Shown piece after piece: positions 43,301-56,360 of a DNA stretch of 64,000 bases. Both the position numbers and the translations under genes were made by a program. Each line of letters opens with the position of its first letter. Positions within the stretch are counted from its first letter, which is position 1. Source of the stretch: Alphaproteobacteria bacterium (GTDB lineage Bacteria; Pseudomonadota; Alphaproteobacteria; Reyranellales; Reyranellaceae); NCBI GenBank assembly GCA_016869975.1, contig VGCZ01000013.1, forward strand, positions 1 through 64,000, written 5' to 3'. The notes beneath the pieces are model-generated. The model was given only the letters and a program-made list of their open reading frames with translations. It was not told the DNA's origin and searched no databases.

Positions 43301-44269
43301 ATGCGCAGGCGCGGCCTGATCGCTTCGACTGTTTCGTTGATTGTCGCGCCGGCGATCGTGCGCGCGCAGGCGGCTTGGCCCAACCGGCAGGTACGCTTCA
43401 TTGTGCCGTTTCCGCCCGGCGGCGGCACCGACACGATCGGCCGCATCATCGCCGATCAGCTCGGCAAGACCTTCGGCCAGACCTTCGTTGTCGACAACAG
43501 GGGTGGCGCCGGCGGCACCGTCGGCACCGTCGAGCTCGCGCGCGCGGCGCCTGACGGCTACACCGTGGGCATGATCACCGTGGGTTCGCACGGCATCCAT
43601 CCGACGCTCTACGCCAAGCTGGCCTACGATCCCTACAAGGACTTCACGCCAATCTCGATGTTCGCCTCGCTGCCCAACCTGCTGGCGCTGCATCCGTCGG
43701 TGCCAGCCAAGACCGTGGCCGAGCTGATCGATCTCCTGAAGAAGAACCCCGGCAAGTACACCTTCTGCTCATCCGGCGCCGGCACTTCGCTGCATCTGAG
43801 CGGCGAGCTGTTCAAGCAGATGGCCGGCGTCGACATGCTGCACGTGCCCTACAAGGGCGGCGGGCCGGCGTTGATCGATCTGGTCGCCGGCCAGGTGCAC
43901 ATGATCTTCGGCAACGCGCCCAGCACCTGGCCGCTGGTCAAGGACGGCAAGCTGCGCGGCATCGCGGTGACCTCGCCGGAGCGCTCGAGGATCATGCCCG
44001 AGTTTCCGGCCATCGCCGAGACCGTGCCCGGTTTCGCCGCCACCTCGTGGTATGGCCTCGCCGGTCCGGCCGGCTTGCCGCAGCCGATCGTCGAACGCTT
44101 CGAGGCGGCGCTGCGCGAGATCCTCGCCAAGCCCGAGGTGACCAAGCGCTACGCCGAGCTCGGTACCGACATCCCGCCGCTCGGCAAGGCCTATCTCGAC
44201 AAGTTCTATCCGGAGGAGATCGCCCGCTGGGCGCCGGTCGTGCGTGCGTCGGGGGCGCGGGTCGAGTAA
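43301..44269 (+). CDS. Bug/TctC family periplasmic binding protein
   Basis: 322 residues from ATG 43301; GGAGGGATGCC precedes the start. Signal R-R-R-G-L-I-A-S-T-V-S-L with cleavage near V-R-A-Q; then V-R-F-I-V-P-F-P-P-G-G-G-T-D, the carboxylate-binding pattern, and H-V-P-Y-K-G-G-G-P-A. No tctA/tctB gene is close. The fumarylacetoacetase-family gene begins 58 bases downstream, so the protein could bind the substrate of that path. Confidence 0.92.
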   Translation: MRRRGLIASTVSLIVAPAIVRAQAAWPNRQVRFIVPFPPGGGTDTIGRIIADQLGKTFGQTFVVDNRGGAGGTVGTVELARAAPDGYTVGMITVGSHGIHPTLYAKLAYDPYKDFTPISMFASLPNLLALHPSVPAKTVAELIDLLKKNPGKYTFCSSGAGTSLHLSGELFKQMAGVDMLHVPYKGGGPALIDLVAGQVHMIFGNAPSTWPLVKDGKLRGIAVTSPERSRIMPEFPAIAETVPGFAATSWYGLAGPAGLPQPIVERFEAALREILAKPEVTKRYAELGTDIPPLGKAYLDKFYPEEIARWAPVVRASGARVE

Positions 44270-45188: not shown

Positions 45189-46289
45189 ATGTCGCTGGTA
45201 GTCCGTAACTTCGTCGCAGGCGCGGTACTTGCTCTGGCGTCGCTGGGCGTGGTCCAGCCGGTCGCCGCCCAGAGCGTACAGCGGGTCGCCCTGGTGCTTG
45301 GCAACGGCACTTATCTTGTGCAGCCGCCGGTGCCAGCTTGTCCGCTGGCGGCCCGCGCCGTCGCCGATCGTCTGCGCGCCGCGGGTTACGATGTCGTGGA
45401 TCGCAACGATGTGAGCGGCGGTGGTTTCGACGCCGCCCTCGCCGATTTCAGCGGCCGGTTGGCCAAGGCGCCAGGCGCCGGCGCCTTTATCTACATCTGC
45501 GGGCGCGGCGCCAGCCTCAACGACCGCGCGTTCCTGCTGCCGGTGTCAGCGACCTTGGAGCGCCCCACTGACCTGTTCACCCAGGGGGTGCTGGTCAAGG
45601 CGATCTACGACGCCCTGTCCCGCAATAGCGCTGGTCCTTCGGTCGTGGCGCTCGACGTCATGCCGCCATCGGGCGCTAAGCCGACTGGCTTTGACACCGT
45701 GGCACAGGCGGCAAGTTCGGACGGGATGGCCGCGATCACCGTGTTCGAAGCCTCGCCTGGTCCCGCGGGCACACCGATGTCGGGGGCGCTGATTGCGACT
45801 TTGGGCAGCGCGCCGACGATCGAGAACGGCGCCTTCCTGACCGCACTCCAGCAGCGCCTGGGCTCGACCTCGGCCAGCACGATCGCGGTGGTGCGCCAGC
45901 CCAAGACCACCGGCCTGGTCGTCGGCCGCCCGGCTGTGGCGCCGCCGCCGCCCGTCGCCCCACCCGTGGCGACGCCGCCAACCCCGCCGGTAGCGCAGCC
46001 GCCAGCCCCGCCCGTCTCCGCGCCGCCCGTCGCTACGCCACCCGTCGCCACGCCGGTAGCGCCGCCGCCGCCGGAGGCGACGATGCCTGAAGAAGACCTG
46101 ATGACGCTTGAGCATCGCCGGCGCATGCAGGAGGCGCTCAAGCTGCTGGGGTACTATACTGGGCCGCTAGATGGCGTATTCGGTCCTGAAACGCGGGCTG
46201 CGATCCGCCGCTTCCAAATGCAGACCATGGCGGAGCCGACGGGGCGGCTGACGCCGCAACAGGCCAGTCGCCTGGCAACCGTTCGCTAG
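45189..46289 (+). CDS. exported caspase-fold protein without catalytic residues, with C-terminal peptidoglycan-binding domain
   Basis: 366 residues with a Sec signal (cleavage near A-A-Q, residue 28). The first part (31-245) follows the peptidase C14 (caspase) family closely: V-A-L-V-L-G-N-G-x-Y, V-A-D-R-L-R-A-A-G-Y-D-V, and A-F-L-L-P-V-S-A. But where active members have G-H-G, this has C-G-R-G (Arg106), and where they have L-D-A-C-R it has L-D-V-M-P (Met158). Both catalytic residues are gone. A Pro/Ala/Val linker (249-300) leads to a PG_binding_1 domain (308-362: L-L-G-Y-Y-T-G-P-L-D-G-V-F-G-P-E-T). The sensor and kinase genes follow at short spacing (18 and 5 bases), so the three probably act together at the cell wall. 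Confidence 0.8.
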   Translation: MSLVVRNFVAGAVLALASLGVVQPVAAQSVQRVALVLGNGTYLVQPPVPACPLAARAVADRLRAAGYDVVDRNDVSGGGFDAALADFSGRLAKAPGAGAFIYICGRGASLNDRAFLLPVSATLERPTDLFTQGVLVKAIYDALSRNSAGPSVVALDVMPPSGAKPTGFDTVAQAASSDGMAAITVFEASPGPAGTPMSGALIATLGSAPTIENGAFLTALQQRLGSTSASTIAVVRQPKTTGLVVGRPAVAPPPPVAPPVATPPTPPVAQPPAPPVSAPPVATPPVATPVAPPPPEATMPEEDLMTLEHRRRMQEALKLLGYYTGPLDGVFGPETRAAIRRFQMQTMAEPTGRLTPQQASRLATVR

Positions 46290-46307
46290 TTGGGGGATTA
46301 CGTCGTC

Positions 46308-47180
46308 ATGGGACTGAAAGCCAAATTCAACGTCGTGATGGCCGTGGCCTTCCTGATCGGCCTCGGACTGGCAGCGTTCCTGGCCAACCAGGCGTTGCGT
46401 GAGAGCGGTCGCCAGCAGGTATTGCGTGACGCCAGCATGATCATGGCCCAGGCGCAAGCCGTGCGCGGCTACACCGTGACCGAGGTCGAGCCGCTGCTGC
46501 GCGAGCAGATGAAGGCGCGATTCCTGCCGCACTCCGTGCCGAGCTGGGCGGCGCAGACCGTGTGGCGCTTGATGCTGAAGGAGTTCCCGGACTATGCCTA
46601 CAAAGAAGCGGCGCTCAATCCGACCAATCCGGCGGACCGCGCCACCGATTGGGAGGCGGACATCATCGAGAAGTTCCGCGCCGATCCCAAGCTGACCCAG
46701 TGGGTCCTCGAGCGCGACACGCCCACCGGCCCCGTGCTGGTGCTGGCCAAGCCGTTGCGCGTCACCAATCCGGCCTGCCTGATCTGCCACACCACGGCAA
46801 AGGAGGCGCCGCAGACCATGGTCGACCTCTACGGCCCCAACAACGGCTTTGGCTGGAAGCTCAACGAGACGATCGGTGCGCAGGTCGCCTCGGTGCCGAT
46901 GGCCGTCGTCGACAAGCAGGCGGATCGAATGCTGATGCTCTACGTCGGCGCGTTGGCCGTGGTGTTCGCCGTGGTGATCGTGCTGCTCAACGTGATGTTG
47001 CACTACATCGTCGTGAAGCCTGTGCGCCAGATGTCGGCTGCCGCCAATGACGTCAGTCTCGGCAACATGGATGCGCCCGAGGTCGAGGTGAAAGGCCGCG
47101 ACGAGATCGCTTCGCTCGCGGAATCTTTCAATCGCATGCGGCGCAGCCTCGCCAACGCGATGAAAATGCTGGGTAGCTAG
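46308..47180 (+). CDS. DUF3365 (Tll0287-like) heme-type sensor with HAMP domain
   Basis: 290 residues from ATG 46308. One membrane segment at 8-28, a periplasmic domain of the DUF3365 type with C-L-I-C-H (157-161, a c-type heme motif), a second membrane segment (209-235) and a HAMP linker (236-285) at the end. No kinase, cyclase or methyl-accepting part follows. The architecture is that of a sensor whose output must be another protein, and the Ser/Thr kinase gene five bases downstream is the obvious candidate. The heme site suggests that redox state, oxygen or NO is sensed. Confidence 0.85.
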   Translation: MGLKAKFNVVMAVAFLIGLGLAAFLANQALRESGRQQVLRDASMIMAQAQAVRGYTVTEVEPLLREQMKARFLPHSVPSWAAQTVWRLMLKEFPDYAYKEAALNPTNPADRATDWEADIIEKFRADPKLTQWVLERDTPTGPVLVLAKPLRVTNPACLICHTTAKEAPQTMVDLYGPNNGFGWKLNETIGAQVASVPMAVVDKQADRMLMLYVGALAVVFAVVIVLLNVMLHYIVVKPVRQMSAAANDVSLGNMDAPEVEVKGRDEIASLAESFNRMRRSLANAMKMLGS

Positions 47181-47185
47181 CCACA

Positions 47186-48535
47186 ATGCCACCGCCTTCG
47201 GCGCCGCAGAAGATCGGCCGCTATATCGTAGAGTCGACCATCGGCAAGGGGGCCATGGGCGTGATCTATCGCGCCCATGATCCCATGATCGACCGGCCGG
47301 TCGCGCTGAAGCTGGTGAATATCGACCTGCTCGAGGGTAATGGCCGGGCCGACTTCGTCGAACGCTTCCAGCGCGAGGCGCAGGCTGCCGCGCGCTGCGC
47401 CCACAGCAATATCGTCGCGATTTACGACTACGCGCTCCATGGCGAAGATCCCTACATCGCCATGGAGTTCGTCGCCGGCCGCAGCCTCGCGCAGGTGATC
47501 GATGGCGGCGGCCGCCTGCCGATCGACGTCTCGGCGGCGATCGCGCGCCAGATGCTCGACGCGCTGGCCTGCGCCCATGCCCAGGGCATCGTGCATCGCG
47601 ACATCAAGCCAGCCAACGTCCTGCTGACATCCGATGGCCGCGTGAAGGTCACCGATTTCGGCATCTCCCGGATCGGCGGCTCCTCGCTGACCCAGACCGG
47701 CGCGATGATCGGTACGCCCAACTACATGTCGCCGGAGCAGGGCCGCGGCGAGGAGGTCGACGCACGCAGCGATCTGTTCTCGACCGCGGCGGTTTTCTAC
47801 GAGCTGCTGACCGGCGCGCGCCCGTTCCCCGGCCGCAACTTCCACGAGGTCACCTATCAGCTGCTCTATGGCGAGCCCATGCCGCTGTCGAAGCATCTGC
47901 CGGAGGCGCCGGCGGCGTTGGTCGCGTTTGTTGCCAAGGCGCTGGCGCGCGATCCGGCGCAGCGCTTCGCGACGGCGGATGCGATGAACACCGCGCTGGC
48001 CAACGCCTTGCGCGGCACCGTCCTGGCGGACTCGCCGGGCAATGCCGCCACGGTGATCGGACCGTCGCCGACGGCGGTGATCGGCCCGCACCTGCAGGAG
48101 ATCGAGCGCAGGCTGGCGGCCTATGTCGGGCCGATCGCCGGCTACCTTGTGCGCAGCGCGAGCGGGCGCAGCACCTCGATCGAGGAGCTCTGCAAGAGCC
48201 TCAGCACCAGCATCGACAAGGTCGAGCAGCGCGAGGCGTTTCTGCGCGACGCGCTCAAGGTCTCGCGCGTCGGTGCGGGCACCGGCACGTCGGGCCTCGT
48301 CGCCTCGACCTTGATCGCGCCGCAACCCAACGCGGCGACCGCTTCCATACCGCAGGCCGATATCGATCAGGCCCAGGCCGAACTCGCCCGCCATATCGGG
48401 CCGATCGCCCCGCTCTTGGTGCGCCGCGAGCGGGCGGCGGCGCAGAGCGCCGAGGATCTCTGGCAGCGCCTGGCCAAGCACATCGACAAGCCGGCCGACC
48501 GCGAGGTCTTCCTGCGCAACCGCGCCCCGCGCTGA
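47186..48535 (+). CDS. Ser/Thr protein kinase with two C-terminal helical repeats
   Basis: 449 residues. The kinase domain (11-275) is complete: G-K-G-A-M-G-V (20-26), Lys42 in V-A-L-K-L-V, H-R-D-I-K-P-A-N (Asp139) and D-F-G (157-159), with A-P-E-like S-P-E-Q. The C-terminus holds two related repeats of about 58 residues (302-361 and 392-449) sharing G-P-I-A-x-x-L-V-R and a C-terminal I-D-K-x-x-x-R-E-x-F-L-R. There is no membrane segment, so it is cytoplasmic. The start is five bases after the sensor gene. The repeats may be the docking surface for the HAMP end. Hanks-type kinases with such tails occur in several proteobacteria, but the role is unknown. Confidence 0.9.
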   Translation: MPPPSAPQKIGRYIVESTIGKGAMGVIYRAHDPMIDRPVALKLVNIDLLEGNGRADFVERFQREAQAAARCAHSNIVAIYDYALHGEDPYIAMEFVAGRSLAQVIDGGGRLPIDVSAAIARQMLDALACAHAQGIVHRDIKPANVLLTSDGRVKVTDFGISRIGGSSLTQTGAMIGTPNYMSPEQGRGEEVDARSDLFSTAAVFYELLTGARPFPGRNFHEVTYQLLYGEPMPLSKHLPEAPAALVAFVAKALARDPAQRFATADAMNTALANALRGTVLADSPGNAATVIGPSPTAVIGPHLQEIERRLAAYVGPIAGYLVRSASGRSTSIEELCKSLSTSIDKVEQREAFLRDALKVSRVGAGTGTSGLVASTLIAPQPNAATASIPQADIDQAQAELARHIGPIAPLLVRRERAAAQSAEDLWQRLAKHIDKPADREVFLRNRAPR

Positions 48536-48651
48536 TAGGCGGAACTTATCCGTCCGGGCATGTTGCGTCCGCCTGCCGCCTGACCCTAGCATCGTGGCAG
48601 TCAGGACAATGAAAACCGTGCGGGCAAGCCGCGCACAGGGAGGGTGTGACG

Positions 48652-49659
48652 ATGACAGAACTCGGTTCGCGCAAGGCGACGCCGGTGCGCAGGCGTGTGG
48701 TGCTAGGCAGTGCGCTTCTCGCGCCGATGATCGCCTCGGGCGTGGCGCGGGCGCAGGATGCCTGGCCCAACCGCGCGGTGCGCTACATCAATCCCTTCCC
48801 GGCCGGCGGCGCCACCGACACGCTCTCGCGCATCTATTGCGCCAAGATGAGCGAGCTGACCAAGCAGCCCTGGGTGGTCGAGAACCGCAGCGGCGGCGGC
48901 GGCGACGTCGGCGTCGACGTGGTCGCGAAGTCCGATCCCGACGGCTATACGGTGGGTCTCGGCGGCATCGCCAGCCATGGTATCTCGGCGACGCTCAAGA
49001 AGGGCAAGCTGCCGTTCGATCCGCGCAAGGATTTCACCTTCATCAGTGGGTTGTGGTTCCTGCCCAACATGCTGATCACCAACCTCGACCTGCCGGCCAA
49101 GAACCTGCCCGAGCTGATCGAGCTCTTGCGCAAGAATCCCGGCAAGTATTCCTACGGCTCGGCCGGCGCCGGCACGACATTGCATCTCAGCGGCGAACTC
49201 TTGAAGCTGATGGCCAAGGTCGACGTGTTGCACGTGCCCTATCGCGGCGCCGCGCCGGCGATCATCGATCTCATGTCAGGCCAGATCCAGCTGATGTTCG
49301 ACAACATCCCCGGCGCGCTGGCCCAGGTGCGGCCGGGCAAGGTGCGGCCGATCGCCGTCACCACGCTCAAGCGGAGCCCCTCGGCGCCCGACGTGCCGAC
49401 GATCAACGAGGTGCTGCCCGGCTTCGACATCACGTCGTGGACCTGCGTCTGCGGCCCGGCGCGCATCCCGCAGCCAATCGTCGATCGCATCAACGCGCTG
49501 TCCAAGCAAGCGCTGGAATCGGCCGATGTCGCCGGCAAGTACCAGGATCAGGGCGCCACGGCGTGGTGGACCAGCCAGGCGGATATCGTCGCCTATCGCG
49601 ACAAGGAGGAGACGCGGCTCGGCAATATCATCACCCAGGCCAAGATCACGCTCGACTGA
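48652..49659 (+). CDS. Bug/TctC family periplasmic binding protein
   Basis: 335 residues from ATG 48652 (a GTG six bases upstream is possible). A longer N-terminus (R-K-A-T-P-V-R-R-R-V-V-L-G-S) leads to a twin-arginine-like signal cleaved near A-R-A-Q. The mature protein starts A-V-R-Y-I-N-P-F-P-A-G-G-A-T-D and has H-V-P-Y-R-G-A-A-P-A. No transporter partner is nearby. It is the third copy of the family in the window. Confidence 0.92.
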   Translation: MTELGSRKATPVRRRVVLGSALLAPMIASGVARAQDAWPNRAVRYINPFPAGGATDTLSRIYCAKMSELTKQPWVVENRSGGGGDVGVDVVAKSDPDGYTVGLGGIASHGISATLKKGKLPFDPRKDFTFISGLWFLPNMLITNLDLPAKNLPELIELLRKNPGKYSYGSAGAGTTLHLSGELLKLMAKVDVLHVPYRGAAPAIIDLMSGQIQLMFDNIPGALAQVRPGKVRPIAVTTLKRSPSAPDVPTINEVLPGFDITSWTCVCGPARIPQPIVDRINALSKQALESADVAGKYQDQGATAWWTSQADIVAYRDKEETRLGNIITQAKITLD

Positions 49660-52039: not shown

Positions 52040-52939
52040 CTACTTCTTCGGCGCGTCGGCGGGCTTGGCCGCCGCTGGTTCGGCCGGCGGTGGCGGCTCC
52101 TTCTGCATCGCGCCGGTCATCGGGATGAAGTAGACGCCAAGGTCCTTCTTGGAATGCACCTTGCCGTCGGCGTCCTTGCTGAAGACGTAGAGGAACTGCT
52201 CGCGCTTGAAGGGCTGGCCGATCGGGATCACCAGGCGGCCGCCCGGTTTGAGCTGCTTCAAGAGCGGCGGCGGCACGTACTGCGCCACGCAGGTGACCAT
52301 GATCAGGTCGAAGCCGTCCTTCTCCTCGGGCCAGCCGAAAAATCCGTCGCCGATGCGCGTCTCGAGGTTGTTGTTGAAGCCCAAGGGCTCGAAGATGCGC
52401 GCTACCGCCTTGCCCAGCGGCTCGATGATCTCGATCGAATAGGCCTTCTTGACGATGCGCGAGAGGATCGAGATCTGGTAGCCGGAACCAGTGCCGATCT
52501 CCAACGCCACGCTGTTGGCGGTCGGCCTGCAAAGCTGGGTCATATAGGCCTGGCCGCGGTAGTCCGACAGCGCCGAGCCCAACCCGATGGGCCAAGGCTT
52601 CGACTCCCCCTCATAGGCGACGGTGGCGAAGTCCGCCTGCGTGGCATAGTTGTAGTGATAGTACTCGCGCGGCACTTCGCGGAAGGCGCGGACGACCTCC
52701 GGATCGGCCGCGCCGAAGTGGTGATGTAACACGCTCGCGATGGTGTTCAGCGCGGCCGGCCGGCGCCTCTGCATCGCCGCCCATTCTTCGGCCGAGATCT
52801 TGACGTTGCGACCGCCTGCCTTCATCGCCGCGACGAAGGCGGCGTAGGTCCAGGGCGCGGGCTGGGCGTGGACGATCGCCGGCGCCGCCAGCGTCGCACC
52901 GGCGGCCGTCATCAACGCGCGCCGTCGGGTCAGAATCAT
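52040..52939 (-). CDS. exported protein-L-isoaspartate O-methyltransferase-like protein, copy 1
   Basis: 299 residues from ATG 52939. The signal reads L-T-R-R-R-A-L-M-T-A-A-G ... V-H-A-Q, twin-arginine-like. An N-terminal part of about 75 residues precedes the PIMT-type Rossmann domain with V-P-R-E-Y-Y, A-L-E-I-G-T-G-S-G-Y-Q and L-K-P-G-G-R-L-V-I-P. The C-terminus is Pro/Ala/Lys-rich. PIMT normally works in the cytoplasm with S-adenosylmethionine, so an exported version is unusual. The paralogue at 53043 lies 103 bases upstream on the same strand. Confidence 0.82.
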   Translation of the reverse strand: MILTRRRALMTAAGATLAAPAIVHAQPAPWTYAAFVAAMKAGGRNVKISAEEWAAMQRRRPAALNTIASVLHHHFGAADPEVVRAFREVPREYYHYNYATQADFATVAYEGESKPWPIGLGSALSDYRGQAYMTQLCRPTANSVALEIGTGSGYQISILSRIVKKAYSIEIIEPLGKAVARIFEPLGFNNNLETRIGDGFFGWPEEKDGFDLIMVTCVAQYVPPPLLKQLKPGGRLVIPIGQPFKREQFLYVFSKDADGKVHSKKDLGVYFIPMTGAMQKEPPPPAEPAAAKPADAPKK

Positions 52940-53042
52940 AGGTCCGGTCTCCCTTCCGGAGGATCGAAATGCGGCCACCAACCTAAGGCTTCGCGGTCAT
53001 GATTCCTAGCGGATCTACCGCACCCGGTACGACAGCGCGGCC

Positions 53043-53894
53043 CTATCGGCCCTGCGAGATGCGGCCGGTCATCGGGATGAAATACACGCCGACGTCGCGC
53101 CGGCTGTGGATCTTGCCGTCTTTGTCCTTGGTGTAGACGTAGAGCACTTGCTCGCGGCGGAATGGCTGGCCCACGGGGATGATCAGCCGGCCGGTGCCGG
53201 GCTTGAGCTGGGCGAGCAGCGGCGGCGGCACGTGCTGGGCGACGCAGGTCACCATGATGATGTCGAAGCCTTCCTTCTCCTCCGGCCAGCCGAAATAGCC
53301 GTCGCCCACCTTGGTGATGACGTTGTCGAAGCCCAGCGGCTTGAAGATCTTGGCCACGGCGCGGCCCAAAGGCTCGATGATCTCGATCGAGTAGGCCTTG
53401 GCGCAGACGCGGGAGAGAATCGAGATCTGGTAGCCCGAGCCGGTGCCGATCTCGAGCGCGTTCTCGCCCGGTTGCGGCCTGGACAGCTGGGTCATGTACA
53501 TCTGGCCGAGATAGTCCGACAGCGCCGAGCCGTAGCCGATCGCCCAGGGATGGGCGTTGCCCTCGTAGGCCGAGGCGCCGAAATCGAAGGCGCCAGCGTA
53601 GTTGTAGTGGAAGTACTCGCGCGGCACCTCGGCGTAGGCGCGCAAACTGTGTGGGTCTGCCTCGCGGAACTTGCCGCGCAGGTAATTCTCGACGATGCGC
53701 AGCGCCTGATCGCGCCGGCGCATGACGCCGTCGAAGGTCGCCTTGTTCATGCCGATGCGGCGCTCGCTGGCGCGCATCGCCGCGACGTACTGGTCGTAGT
53801 CCCAGCCGCCGCCATAGGGCTGCGCCAGCGCCGGCGCGGCAAGGGCGGCGGCGGCGCCCTGGGCGATCAGCGTGCGGCGGGTCAGCGAGACCAT
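53043..53894 (-). CDS. exported protein-L-isoaspartate O-methyltransferase-like protein, copy 2
   Basis: 283 residues. The signal L-T-R-R-T-L-I-A-Q-G-A-A-A-A ... A-L-A-Q is a good twin-arginine candidate. The body has V-P-R-E-Y-F-H-Y-N-Y, A-L-E-I-G-T-G-S-G-Y-Q-I-S-I-L-S-R and L-I-I-P-V-G-Q-P-F. It is clearly paralogous to the gene at 52040 and shares the same pattern F-I-P-M-T-G near the end. It begins 15 bases after the membrane spermidine-synthase-like gene, so the two are translated together. Confidence 0.82.
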   Translation of the reverse strand: MVSLTRRTLIAQGAAAALAAPALAQPYGGGWDYDQYVAAMRASERRIGMNKATFDGVMRRRDQALRIVENYLRGKFREADPHSLRAYAEVPREYFHYNYAGAFDFGASAYEGNAHPWAIGYGSALSDYLGQMYMTQLSRPQPGENALEIGTGSGYQISILSRVCAKAYSIEIIEPLGRAVAKIFKPLGFDNVITKVGDGYFGWPEEKEGFDIIMVTCVAQHVPPPLLAQLKPGTGRLIIPVGQPFRREQVLYVYTKDKDGKIHSRRDVGVYFIPMTGRISQGR

Positions 53895-53909: not shown

Positions 53910-56360
53910 TTACTTGGCCGCCACGCGGTCGGCCGGCAGGGTGAAGACGACGATCGCATAGAGGGCGGCGCCCAGCAGCAGCAACGACTTCAGCCCGACC
54001 GAGACCGCCAGGAGATTGGCCAGCGGCGTCGAGATAATCGAGCAGGCGCCGTTGACCGCCCAGGCCCAGGGCAGGAAGGCCAGCCGGACGCCCTGGAACT
54101 GGCTCAAGCCCAGCGCCATCGGCATGCCCAGCGCCACCGACACCGGCAGGGCGACGGCGACCAGGATGGCGATCTTGACGGCGAAGGGTTCGGTGGCGGT
54201 GGCGATCAGCAGCGGGTCGAGCCAGATGAAGGCGACCCCGCACCAGACCAGGACGGTCAGCACGGCAACGCCCAGCCAGGTCCGTGGCCGGTCGCGCACG
54301 CGCTCCGCCAGCAGGCTGCCCGCGCCCGAGCAGACCAGCATCATGGCTAGCACCAGGCCGAAGGCGAAGACGCGGTCGTGCAGGTACTGCGAGGCCTTCT
54401 CGATCAGGTAGATCTCGAGCGTCAGGAAACCCAGGCCCAGCCCGGCGAAGTACACCGCCGACTTGGCGAAGCGGCCGATCGGCAGCGCGGTGCCGCGCCG
54501 CGTCATAAGCGGCATCAGCAGCACCAAGGTGGCGATCACCAGCGCCTGCGCCAGCACCGCGAGATTGATCAGGTAGACCAGCTCCTCGCGCGGCACGAGC
54601 TCGATGCGGTCGAGAATGGTCTCGACCCGGGTGAGCGGCAGCACGGCGTGGAAATAGGGTCGGTCGATGCTGGGCGGCTCGAGCTTGAAGAAGGCGTGAT
54701 AGGGCGAAGCCTGGCCGGCGACCCCCGCGTTGGCCTCCTCGCTCAGCGGATCGGAACCGGGAGGTTGCGCCTGGGTGACGTCGAAAGACACGACGGGCAG
54801 CTCGTTGAAGACCGTGCGCTTCACACCCTGGCGCGCCGGCGGGAAGACGACATCGAAGGAGCGCTCGTCGCAGAATTTCTCGAGCTCGGCGATCGCCTCG
54901 GGGGTCCAGGGCGTGGCGCTGAGCAGGATGCGCACATTCCACGCCGAACGGTAGATGACGATGTGCTTGTCCGGCTCGGCGATACCGGCGCGGCGCAGCC
55001 CCTCGCGGGCCGTGCCGAACATCTTCACGGCGTAGACCGTGAACTCGCGGATCGACACCGGGATCGACAAGGTGCCGCCGGGCTTGAGCATGCCGACATA
55101 GTCGCCGAGCACCTCGACCGACAACGCGGCGCGGTTGGTGTCGGATTGCCCGAGGAACTCGCGCGTGATGTCGATCACGTCGAACGGACCATCGCGTGCG
55201 ACCACCCGTGTCGCCAGCGGGCTGGTGTCGCGGATCGTCACGCGCTGGTCGGCCGGAAAGGCCGGCGCCGGCCCAATGCCGCGCAGAAGTGCACGGCGCA
55301 GCGCGTCGTCCGGCTCCAGCGTGACGACGCGCGTGGCGCCGGCGCGCAGCGCCTCGTGGATGCGAAAGCCGCCGGCGGCGCCCAGCAGCAGCGTCCGCTC
55401 GGGCGGGCGCAGGCGATAGGGCAGGGCATCCAGCGCGGCGGCGAAGTAGCGTGTGTCGACATCGGTCGTGCGCGGCAGCGCGGCGAGGCGGTTGCCGTCG
55501 GCGTACAGGCCATAGGCGCGCGGCATGGTCGCGCCGGCCATGACGTCGGGATTGTTGGAGATGTCGGTGTCGAGCCGCTCGGTGAAATTGTCGAGCAGTT
55601 GGTAGAGGCCCTTGGGCGAGGTCACCGTGGCCAGGACGCGCGCGTCCTGGGTGTTCATGGGCGCGAAGACTTCCTTGTACTCGTTGATGCGCGCCTGGCC
55701 GAGGAAGAGAGCGGCGACCACTGAGACGACCAGCGTGGCCAGCGCGGCGATGCGCACGCGCGATCGCGGCCAGACCGACGACATCTCCAGGCAAGCGGCG
55801 AGCGCCAGCACCGGCAACAAGCAGGGCACCAGCCAGAACGGGTGCACCACGAACATCAGCGCCAGCAGCAGCGCCGCGCCCAGCCCGGCGCCGGCGAGAT
55901 CGAAGGCGTAGACCCGGCCGATGCGATGGCTGTAGTGCACGAAATAGGCCGAGAGGTAGAGCCCGACCATGAAGAAGAACGGGAAGATCGCGGCGTAGTA
56001 CTGCGCGATGTTGAGCAGTTGGTCGTACCAGAGCTGCTTGTTCTGCAGCTCCAGCGGGTTGAACGGCACGACGGTGACCCAGACCCAGCCCAGCGAGGCG
56101 GCCAGCAACATCAGGATCGGCAGCGACGGCAGCAGGACGGGCAGCGATCGGATCAGCAGGCGCGAGAACAGCGAGGCCACCACGCCGCTGGCCGCCAGCC
56201 CGGCCATGGTCATGGAGATCACCCAATAGCCGTACTCCGACCAGCTGGCGATGGCGAAGAAGCGCGTCAGCGCGATCTCGTAGGCGATCGAGGCGAGGCA
56301 CACGAGAAAGAGAGGGACAAGACGCGCGGCCGGAACGTCCTTGATCGCGTCTGTCGCCAC
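53910..56360 (-). CDS. polytopic membrane protein with spermidine-synthase-like domain
   Basis: 816 residues. About seven membrane segments (15-215) precede a soluble part (about 235-590) with a Rossmann-type pattern T-L-L-L-G-A-A-G-G-F-R-I-H-E-A-L-R, followed by V-V-T-L-E-P-D-D; six or seven more segments end the chain. This is the layout of membrane proteins annotated as spermidine synthase-like or fused MFS/SpeE. The canonical polyamine-site residues (D-x-x-Y-D) are not clear to me, so polyamine synthesis is unproven. First gene of the operon with two exported methyltransferase-like proteins and a nucleotidase-type protein. Confidence 0.78.
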   Translation of the reverse strand: MATDAIKDVPAARLVPLFLVCLASIAYEIALTRFFAIASWSEYGYWVISMTMAGLAASGVVASLFSRLLIRSLPVLLPSLPILMLLAASLGWVWVTVVPFNPLELQNKQLWYDQLLNIAQYYAAIFPFFFMVGLYLSAYFVHYSHRIGRVYAFDLAGAGLGAALLLALMFVVHPFWLVPCLLPVLALAACLEMSSVWPRSRVRIAALATLVVSVVAALFLGQARINEYKEVFAPMNTQDARVLATVTSPKGLYQLLDNFTERLDTDISNNPDVMAGATMPRAYGLYADGNRLAALPRTTDVDTRYFAAALDALPYRLRPPERTLLLGAAGGFRIHEALRAGATRVVTLEPDDALRRALLRGIGPAPAFPADQRVTIRDTSPLATRVVARDGPFDVIDITREFLGQSDTNRAALSVEVLGDYVGMLKPGGTLSIPVSIREFTVYAVKMFGTAREGLRRAGIAEPDKHIVIYRSAWNVRILLSATPWTPEAIAELEKFCDERSFDVVFPPARQGVKRTVFNELPVVSFDVTQAQPPGSDPLSEEANAGVAGQASPYHAFFKLEPPSIDRPYFHAVLPLTRVETILDRIELVPREELVYLINLAVLAQALVIATLVLLMPLMTRRGTALPIGRFAKSAVYFAGLGLGFLTLEIYLIEKASQYLHDRVFAFGLVLAMMLVCSGAGSLLAERVRDRPRTWLGVAVLTVLVWCGVAFIWLDPLLIATATEPFAVKIAILVAVALPVSVALGMPMALGLSQFQGVRLAFLPWAWAVNGACSIISTPLANLLAVSVGLKSLLLLGAALYAIVVFTLPADRVAAK

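Follow-up and report, generated by a model that had tools for sequence, protein, structure and literature searches.

Can a membrane sensor without an output domain and a soluble Ser/Thr kinase without a sensor, encoded by adjacent genes, be the two parts of one receptor? This question is raised by three genes of an alphaproteobacterium of the family Reyranellaceae (GenBank assembly GCA_016869975.1, contig VGCZ01000013.1), located in a stretch of 64,000 nucleotides that was analysed as a whole and is referred to here as the window. A sequence-only reading had described them as a possible cell-envelope signalling operon, and the gene borders that it gave were recovered as stated, including gaps of 18 bases between the first two genes (CASP and SENS) and of 5 bases between the second and the third (SENS and STK), with the following features.

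45189..46289, + strand: CASP, exported pseudo-caspase of 366 aa with a Pro-rich linker and a C-terminal peptidoglycan-binding domain (Pfam, alignment, profile search)
45282..45584, + strand: caspase p20-like domain of CASP, dyad His and Cys lost (Pfam, alignment of 29 relatives)
46116..46271, + strand: PG_binding_1 domain of CASP (Pfam E 1.5e-15; 29/29 relatives)
46308..47180, + strand: SENS, sCache_heme (DUF3365/Tll0287) membrane sensor of 290 aa ending in HAMP, no output domain (Pfam)
46404..46898, + strand: DUF3365/Tll0287-like domain of SENS, predicted periplasmic (E about 1e-35)
46776..46790, + strand: CLICH, the CxxCH c-type heme motif of SENS, with the sole two Cys of the protein (sequence; 80/80 relatives)
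47004..47150, + strand: HAMP domain of SENS (Pfam 51.3 bits)
47186..48535, + strand: STK, soluble Ser/Thr kinase of 449 aa with twin C-terminal repeats (Pfam, alignment)
47222..47992, + strand: protein kinase domain of STK (Pfam; alignment)
48101..48247, + strand: C-terminal repeat 1 of STK (GPIA repeat, 49 aa, residues 306-354; repeat profile)
48371..48517, + strand: C-terminal repeat 2 of STK (GPIA repeat; repeat profile, as for repeat 1)

The FAH-CASP-SENS-STK stretch is flanked by two genes for TctC/Bug-type solute-binding proteins (window 43307-44269 and 48646-49659). Elsewhere in the window, tandem paralogous PCMT-like genes (52040-52981 and 53043-53894) both show an apparent signal peptide, and the 816-aa frame beside them (53910-56360) has no Pfam match.

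Domain architecture of CASP, SENS and STK

The domain composition proposed from the letters alone, namely a dead caspase-fold protein with a peptidoglycan-binding tail, a DUF3365-HAMP sensor without output and a cytoplasmic Ser/Thr kinase with twin C-terminal repeats, agrees with our analysis. In CASP, Pfam detected Peptidase_C14 (29.5 bits, cut-off 21.4) and PG_binding_1 (57.6 bits), and the solved protein nearest to its profile is the MALT1 paracaspase (E 7e-14). The His-Cys dyad of active caspases and orthocaspases is absent from the window CASP: in an alignment of 29 relatives, the position of the dyad Cys is never Cys, and that of the dyad His is Y, R or L in 27 and H in two, being R in the window. 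All 29 relatives match PF00656, so that CASP falls among the pseudo-orthocaspases. C51 and C104 are each Cys in 27 of the 29 relatives, and the sequence makes a disulfide between them possible.

SENS probably starts at the ATG of position 46308, because homology begins at MGLK, and a TTG at 46290 is an alternative opening codon of the frame. With 122.9 bits against PF11845 (Tll0287-like/DUF3365; cut-off 24.1), SENS belongs to the sCache_heme proteins. Its HAMP profile matches the solved HAMP of AF1503, and nothing that Pfam recognises as an output domain follows it. The CxxCH motif is kept in SENS and in all of its best 80 relatives (out of at least 583), and neither SENS nor any of these 80 has an additional periplasmic Cys, which leaves them without the axial Cys. 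The presence of HAMP and the absence of the axial Cys place SENS among the signalling-type sCache_heme proteins. The designation of the sensor as heme-type is thus backed by the conservation of its motif and also by published spectroscopy of a protein of the same architecture (PMC12889525).

STK matches Pkinase with 167.4 bits, and its catalytic residues K42, D139 (HRD) and D157 (DFG), those of an active Ser/Thr kinase, are invariant in the alignment of 32 relatives. According to the Pfam layout and the sequence, the chain has neither a transmembrane nor a periplasmic domain, and consists of the kinase followed by soluble repeats. The repeats (residues 306-354 and 396-444) score 67 and 70 bits; 72 of 79 kinases carry both, most of the remainder being cut by contig ends. 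No relatives of them were found by sequence in Pfam or the PDB, nor any known fold by Foldseek (best E 1.5; AF1502 with E 2.0 and prob 0.89, not significant); a structure prediction of middling confidence (pLDDT 72.5, pTM 0.36) gave two helical units and a disordered linker. By sequence, the GPIA repeats apparently form a new repeat family. A PG_binding_1 domain is also found at the C-terminus of further Ser/Thr kinases, encoded on contig C6 of the window genome (L193) and in genome G005 (L175:9077-11155), the latter adjoining TssH.

Linkage of the sensor and kinase genes across genomes

When GTDB contigs were scanned with the SENS alignment, at least 583 relatives were recovered. The best 80 of these were analysed, a set that therefore leans to close relatives. 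In 78 of these 80 loci, STK adjoins SENS on the same strand, lying downstream of it in 77 and upstream in one, with a median gap of 20 bases, and the loci span Alpha-, Beta- and Gammaproteobacteria. The same 80 loci showed no other neighbour recurring across lineages and no conserved fourth gene. Within the family of the window, full-length SENS was found in ten genomes (the window and nine others), all of which have the CASP-SENS-STK block, truncated in one where the contig stops, while the genes flanking the block vary outside the genus. Two sensors of the scan probably derive from mis-binned or mislabelled MAG contigs: L101, assigned to Chloroflexota, is identical to the proteobacterial L095, and L091, from a MAG labelled Bordetella parapertussis, is identical to L092.

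Two unbiased sets, both of which hold few positives, were also analysed. Among 289 evenly drawn Alphaproteobacteria, the four genomes with SENS (E under 1e-30) are also the only four with the repeat (E under 1e-4), and the two are adjacent each time (Fisher 3.5e-9); among 398 Pseudomonadota the repeat was found in five genomes, in all five beside SENS. These 398 genomes contain 21 sensor matches. The five that lie beside the repeat kinase are short frames, whereas 15 of the other 16 are frames of 437-983 aa, not all of them annotated, which leave room for a fused output; the lone short exception (L148/L152, 305 aa) has downstream a PilZ-like protein, named by eye. The repeat goes therefore with the output-less sensors, and for these members a pairing of the sensor with a histidine kinase or a cyclase was rejected.

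A chance neighbourhood is ruled out by the occurrence of the block in nine more genomes of the family with varying flanks, by the 78/80 linkage and by the identical phyletic pattern. Another reading takes SENS for a heme protein of redox or electron-transfer function whose operon happens to include STK, a soluble kinase working independently of it, as stand-alone DUF3365 members have redox-like properties (PMC12889525); this is highly improbable, however, given the HAMP domain, the adjacency over three classes with varying flanks and the identical phyletic pattern. The co-occurrence expected by the sequence-only reading is thus borne out for sensor and kinase, and its proposal that the two complete each other is almost certainly right, in view of the linkage, the shared phyletic pattern in the 289 genomes and the retention of the repeats when the kinase domain is exchanged (see below). 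Since an output-less sensor gene adjoins a sensor-less kinase gene across proteobacteria, the pair is probably one split receptor kinase.

Exchange of the upstream partner and of the kinase domain

The three-gene make-up originally proposed is a conserved unit, but its core consists of two genes. Upstream of SENS, in 81 rows including the window, the pseudo-caspase was found in 36, an IalB-fold protein in 20, a FecR-like protein in seven, and none of these in about 17, so that at least three unrelated types of exported partner share the same position. Because the pseudo-caspase is present in 36/81 rows and unrelated exported proteins are found elsewhere, the three-gene operon is one form of the core of SENS and STK. 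On the SENS tree the partner types are grouped by lineage, with eight changes in all. The IalB-fold partner, in which a lipobox and a long linker often precede the domain, has no Pfam family above cut-off; its fold resembles that of Bartonella IalB (3DTD; Z 12.8, rmsd 2.8, 131 aligned; Foldseek 4.8e-4). An FWPxWP motif occurs in IalB-like exported partners (L087, L077, L109 and others).

It could be argued from these partners that the operon serves cell-wall surveillance, the wall-binding pseudo-caspase being the real receptor and SENS mainly relaying to the kinase, with the heme used for folding or redox tuning. In most loci the partner gene is co-directional with SENS and close upstream of it, PG_binding_1 is present in 29/29 CASP proteins and a lipobox in 12/20 of the IalB-fold partners, and a precedent for envelope-side dependence exists in the Acidovorax citrulli T6SS kinase PpkA, which depends on the outer-membrane protein TssW (TssW-PpkA-Fha; PMC12607579). 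Yet CxxCH is kept in all loci, including the approximately 17 of 81 without a recognised partner, and the partner types are unrelated to each other, which makes this explanation improbable.

The kinase domain can be exchanged as well. In five betaproteobacterial loci (L091/L092, L102, L103, L121) it is swapped for that of another subfamily, of the GFGITYLA/KEYLP type, which is 42-50% identical to kinases encoded elsewhere in the window genome and in G005 and about 30% identical to the usual partner kinase, and both repeats are kept; in L121 a cyclase-like domain (Guanylate_cyc) is inserted in addition, with both repeats still there. The repeats are thus what remains constant beside the sensor through these exchanges, and of all parts they are the likeliest to serve as the coupling module.

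Association with type VI secretion

Type VI secretion (T6SS) is a bacterial "harpoon", and T6SS clusters enclose or border the SENS-STK pair in Skermanella, three Caballeronia, Paraburkholderia, G549, G639 and G005, and at L049/L057/L064/L073/L074. The gene order is TssM-TagF-SENS-STK-TssH in Skermanella and STK-FHA-PP2C in G639; two of the Caballeronia pairs stand with PP2C-TagF-TssM and one with TagF-TssM; and in G005, which has TssKLM and PP2C and no PpkA homologue, FHA is encoded 2.9 kb downstream of the pair. Neighbours encoding FHA, PP2C or TagF occur in most T6SS-linked loci (Skermanella, Caballeronia, Paraburkholderia, G549, G639, G005), and the kinase gene is positioned in a T6SS cluster in L153, L161-L163, L166 and L167, some with PP2C or FHA. 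Of the 80 loci close to the type of the window, five have T6SS genes nearby, where a rough estimate of cluster size would predict about 0.9%. TssC is encoded in 27 of 33 sensor-bearing genome entries (31 distinct genomes), and in the family of the window in eight of ten genomes with SENS versus six of 27 without (Fisher 0.002, uncorrected for kinship).

The pair could be therefore a split, heme-gated version of PpkA that acts on T6SS firing by way of Fha and the phosphatase PppA (PP2C), in the window organism as elsewhere. This is rather unlikely, since within genus g3 the association with TssC is not significant (p 0.14), TssC is absent from G019, G020, G044, G547, G704 and G708 in spite of the presence of the pair, and the window STK is not beside PppA or Fha in a T6SS cluster: the T6SS genes of that genome are on contigs C3 and C41, with a PP2C-linked kinase of their own that has a transmembrane segment (C41), whereas the window pair is on C13. 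For the last two reasons, T6SS was not accepted as a general target of the pair. The T6SS of the window genome is split between C3:10680-30200 (L170, L171) and C41 (L191); it has a tandem pair of genes for TssC, together with FHA, PP2C and a PpkA-like kinase 688 aa long. A possible, if doubtful, proposal is that SENS-STK replaces PpkA in several lineages, where a periplasmic NO (heme) sensor with exchangeable envelope accessories would control T6SS post-translationally, NO or redox state arming or disarming the weapon.

The likely signal and a proposed mechanism

DUF3365 has been described in a 2026 preprint (Deshpande et al., PMC12889525) as a Cache domain with a covalent c-type heme. One of its members, Pseudomonas azotoformans WP_033902098 (sCache_heme cluster 2), has two TM helices and HAMP, no output and no axial Cys, and this output-less DUF3365-HAMP protein binds NO, with a koff of 6.25e-4 per second (PMC12889525). 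As a protein of like architecture binds NO, and the sole Cys residues of SENS are those of CxxCH, NO is by analogy the most likely ligand of SENS, the redox state of the heme being an alternative signal. No output partner is named for HAMP-only DUF3365 proteins in PMC12889525, in whose text the words 'serine' and 'operon' are absent, and an STK-type kinase is the best candidate for this output.

The two-gene core is real and widespread, with an exchangeable third gene, and most likely constitutes a split, heme-gated receptor Ser/Thr kinase. A fuller mechanism, which we favour as reasonably probable, would be the following. SENS would carry its covalent heme in the periplasmic Cache domain, and the binding of a ligand, most likely NO, or otherwise a change in heme redox state, would be relayed across the membrane to HAMP. 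The soluble STK would dock by its two GPIA repeats where the SENS dimer ends in HAMP, and the signal would there switch its kinase activity towards its presumed targets. The upstream exported protein (the pseudo-caspase with its wall-binding domain, elsewhere the IalB-fold or FecR-like protein) may be an accessory that tunes SENS, or positions it, from the side of the envelope. The sequence-only reading had suggested that the pseudo-caspase may bind both the wall and the sensor.

A search of the open-access literature rendered no title or abstract on PpkA and heme, orthocaspases and peptidoglycan, or HAMP and threonine kinase that describes the pair, whose known domains are apparently combined in a way not described before, together with a new repeat family. 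A concrete output is offered here for the HAMP-only heme-Cache sensors, a group without a named output in the paper that describes them (PMC12889525). If the mechanism holds, two genes would together make up one receptor Ser/Thr kinase, probably coupled by the new repeats, and in some lineages the pair would connect type VI secretion with heme/NO sensing in the periplasm.

Comparison with known systems

Described architecture, rather than sequence, likens SENS to P. azotoformans WP_033902098, both being DUF3365 proteins with CxxCH and HAMP and without axial Cys or fused output; SENS differs from that protein, as published, in having a linked Ser/Thr kinase gene. CASP shares with the pseudo-orthocaspases a p20 fold without the dyad, but it is exported, has a C-terminal peptidoglycan-binding domain and belongs to a signalling operon. 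The kinase domain of STK is related to that of the PASTA kinases (PknB/Stk1; NF033483 317 bits, below the cut-off of 450), although STK has no PASTA repeats according to Pfam and no transmembrane segment in the kinase chain. Finally, the threonine phosphorylation pathway of T6SS (PpkA-PppA-Fha; TssW-PpkA-Fha, PMC12607579) involves a Ser/Thr kinase with envelope-side input, as is proposed for SENS-STK, and in several lineages the pair shares its cluster with FHA, PP2C and TagF. PpkA, however, holds its own TM segment and periplasmic domain in one chain, whereas SENS and STK are encoded by separate genes, the sensor is of the heme type, and the window copy lies outside the T6SS cluster.
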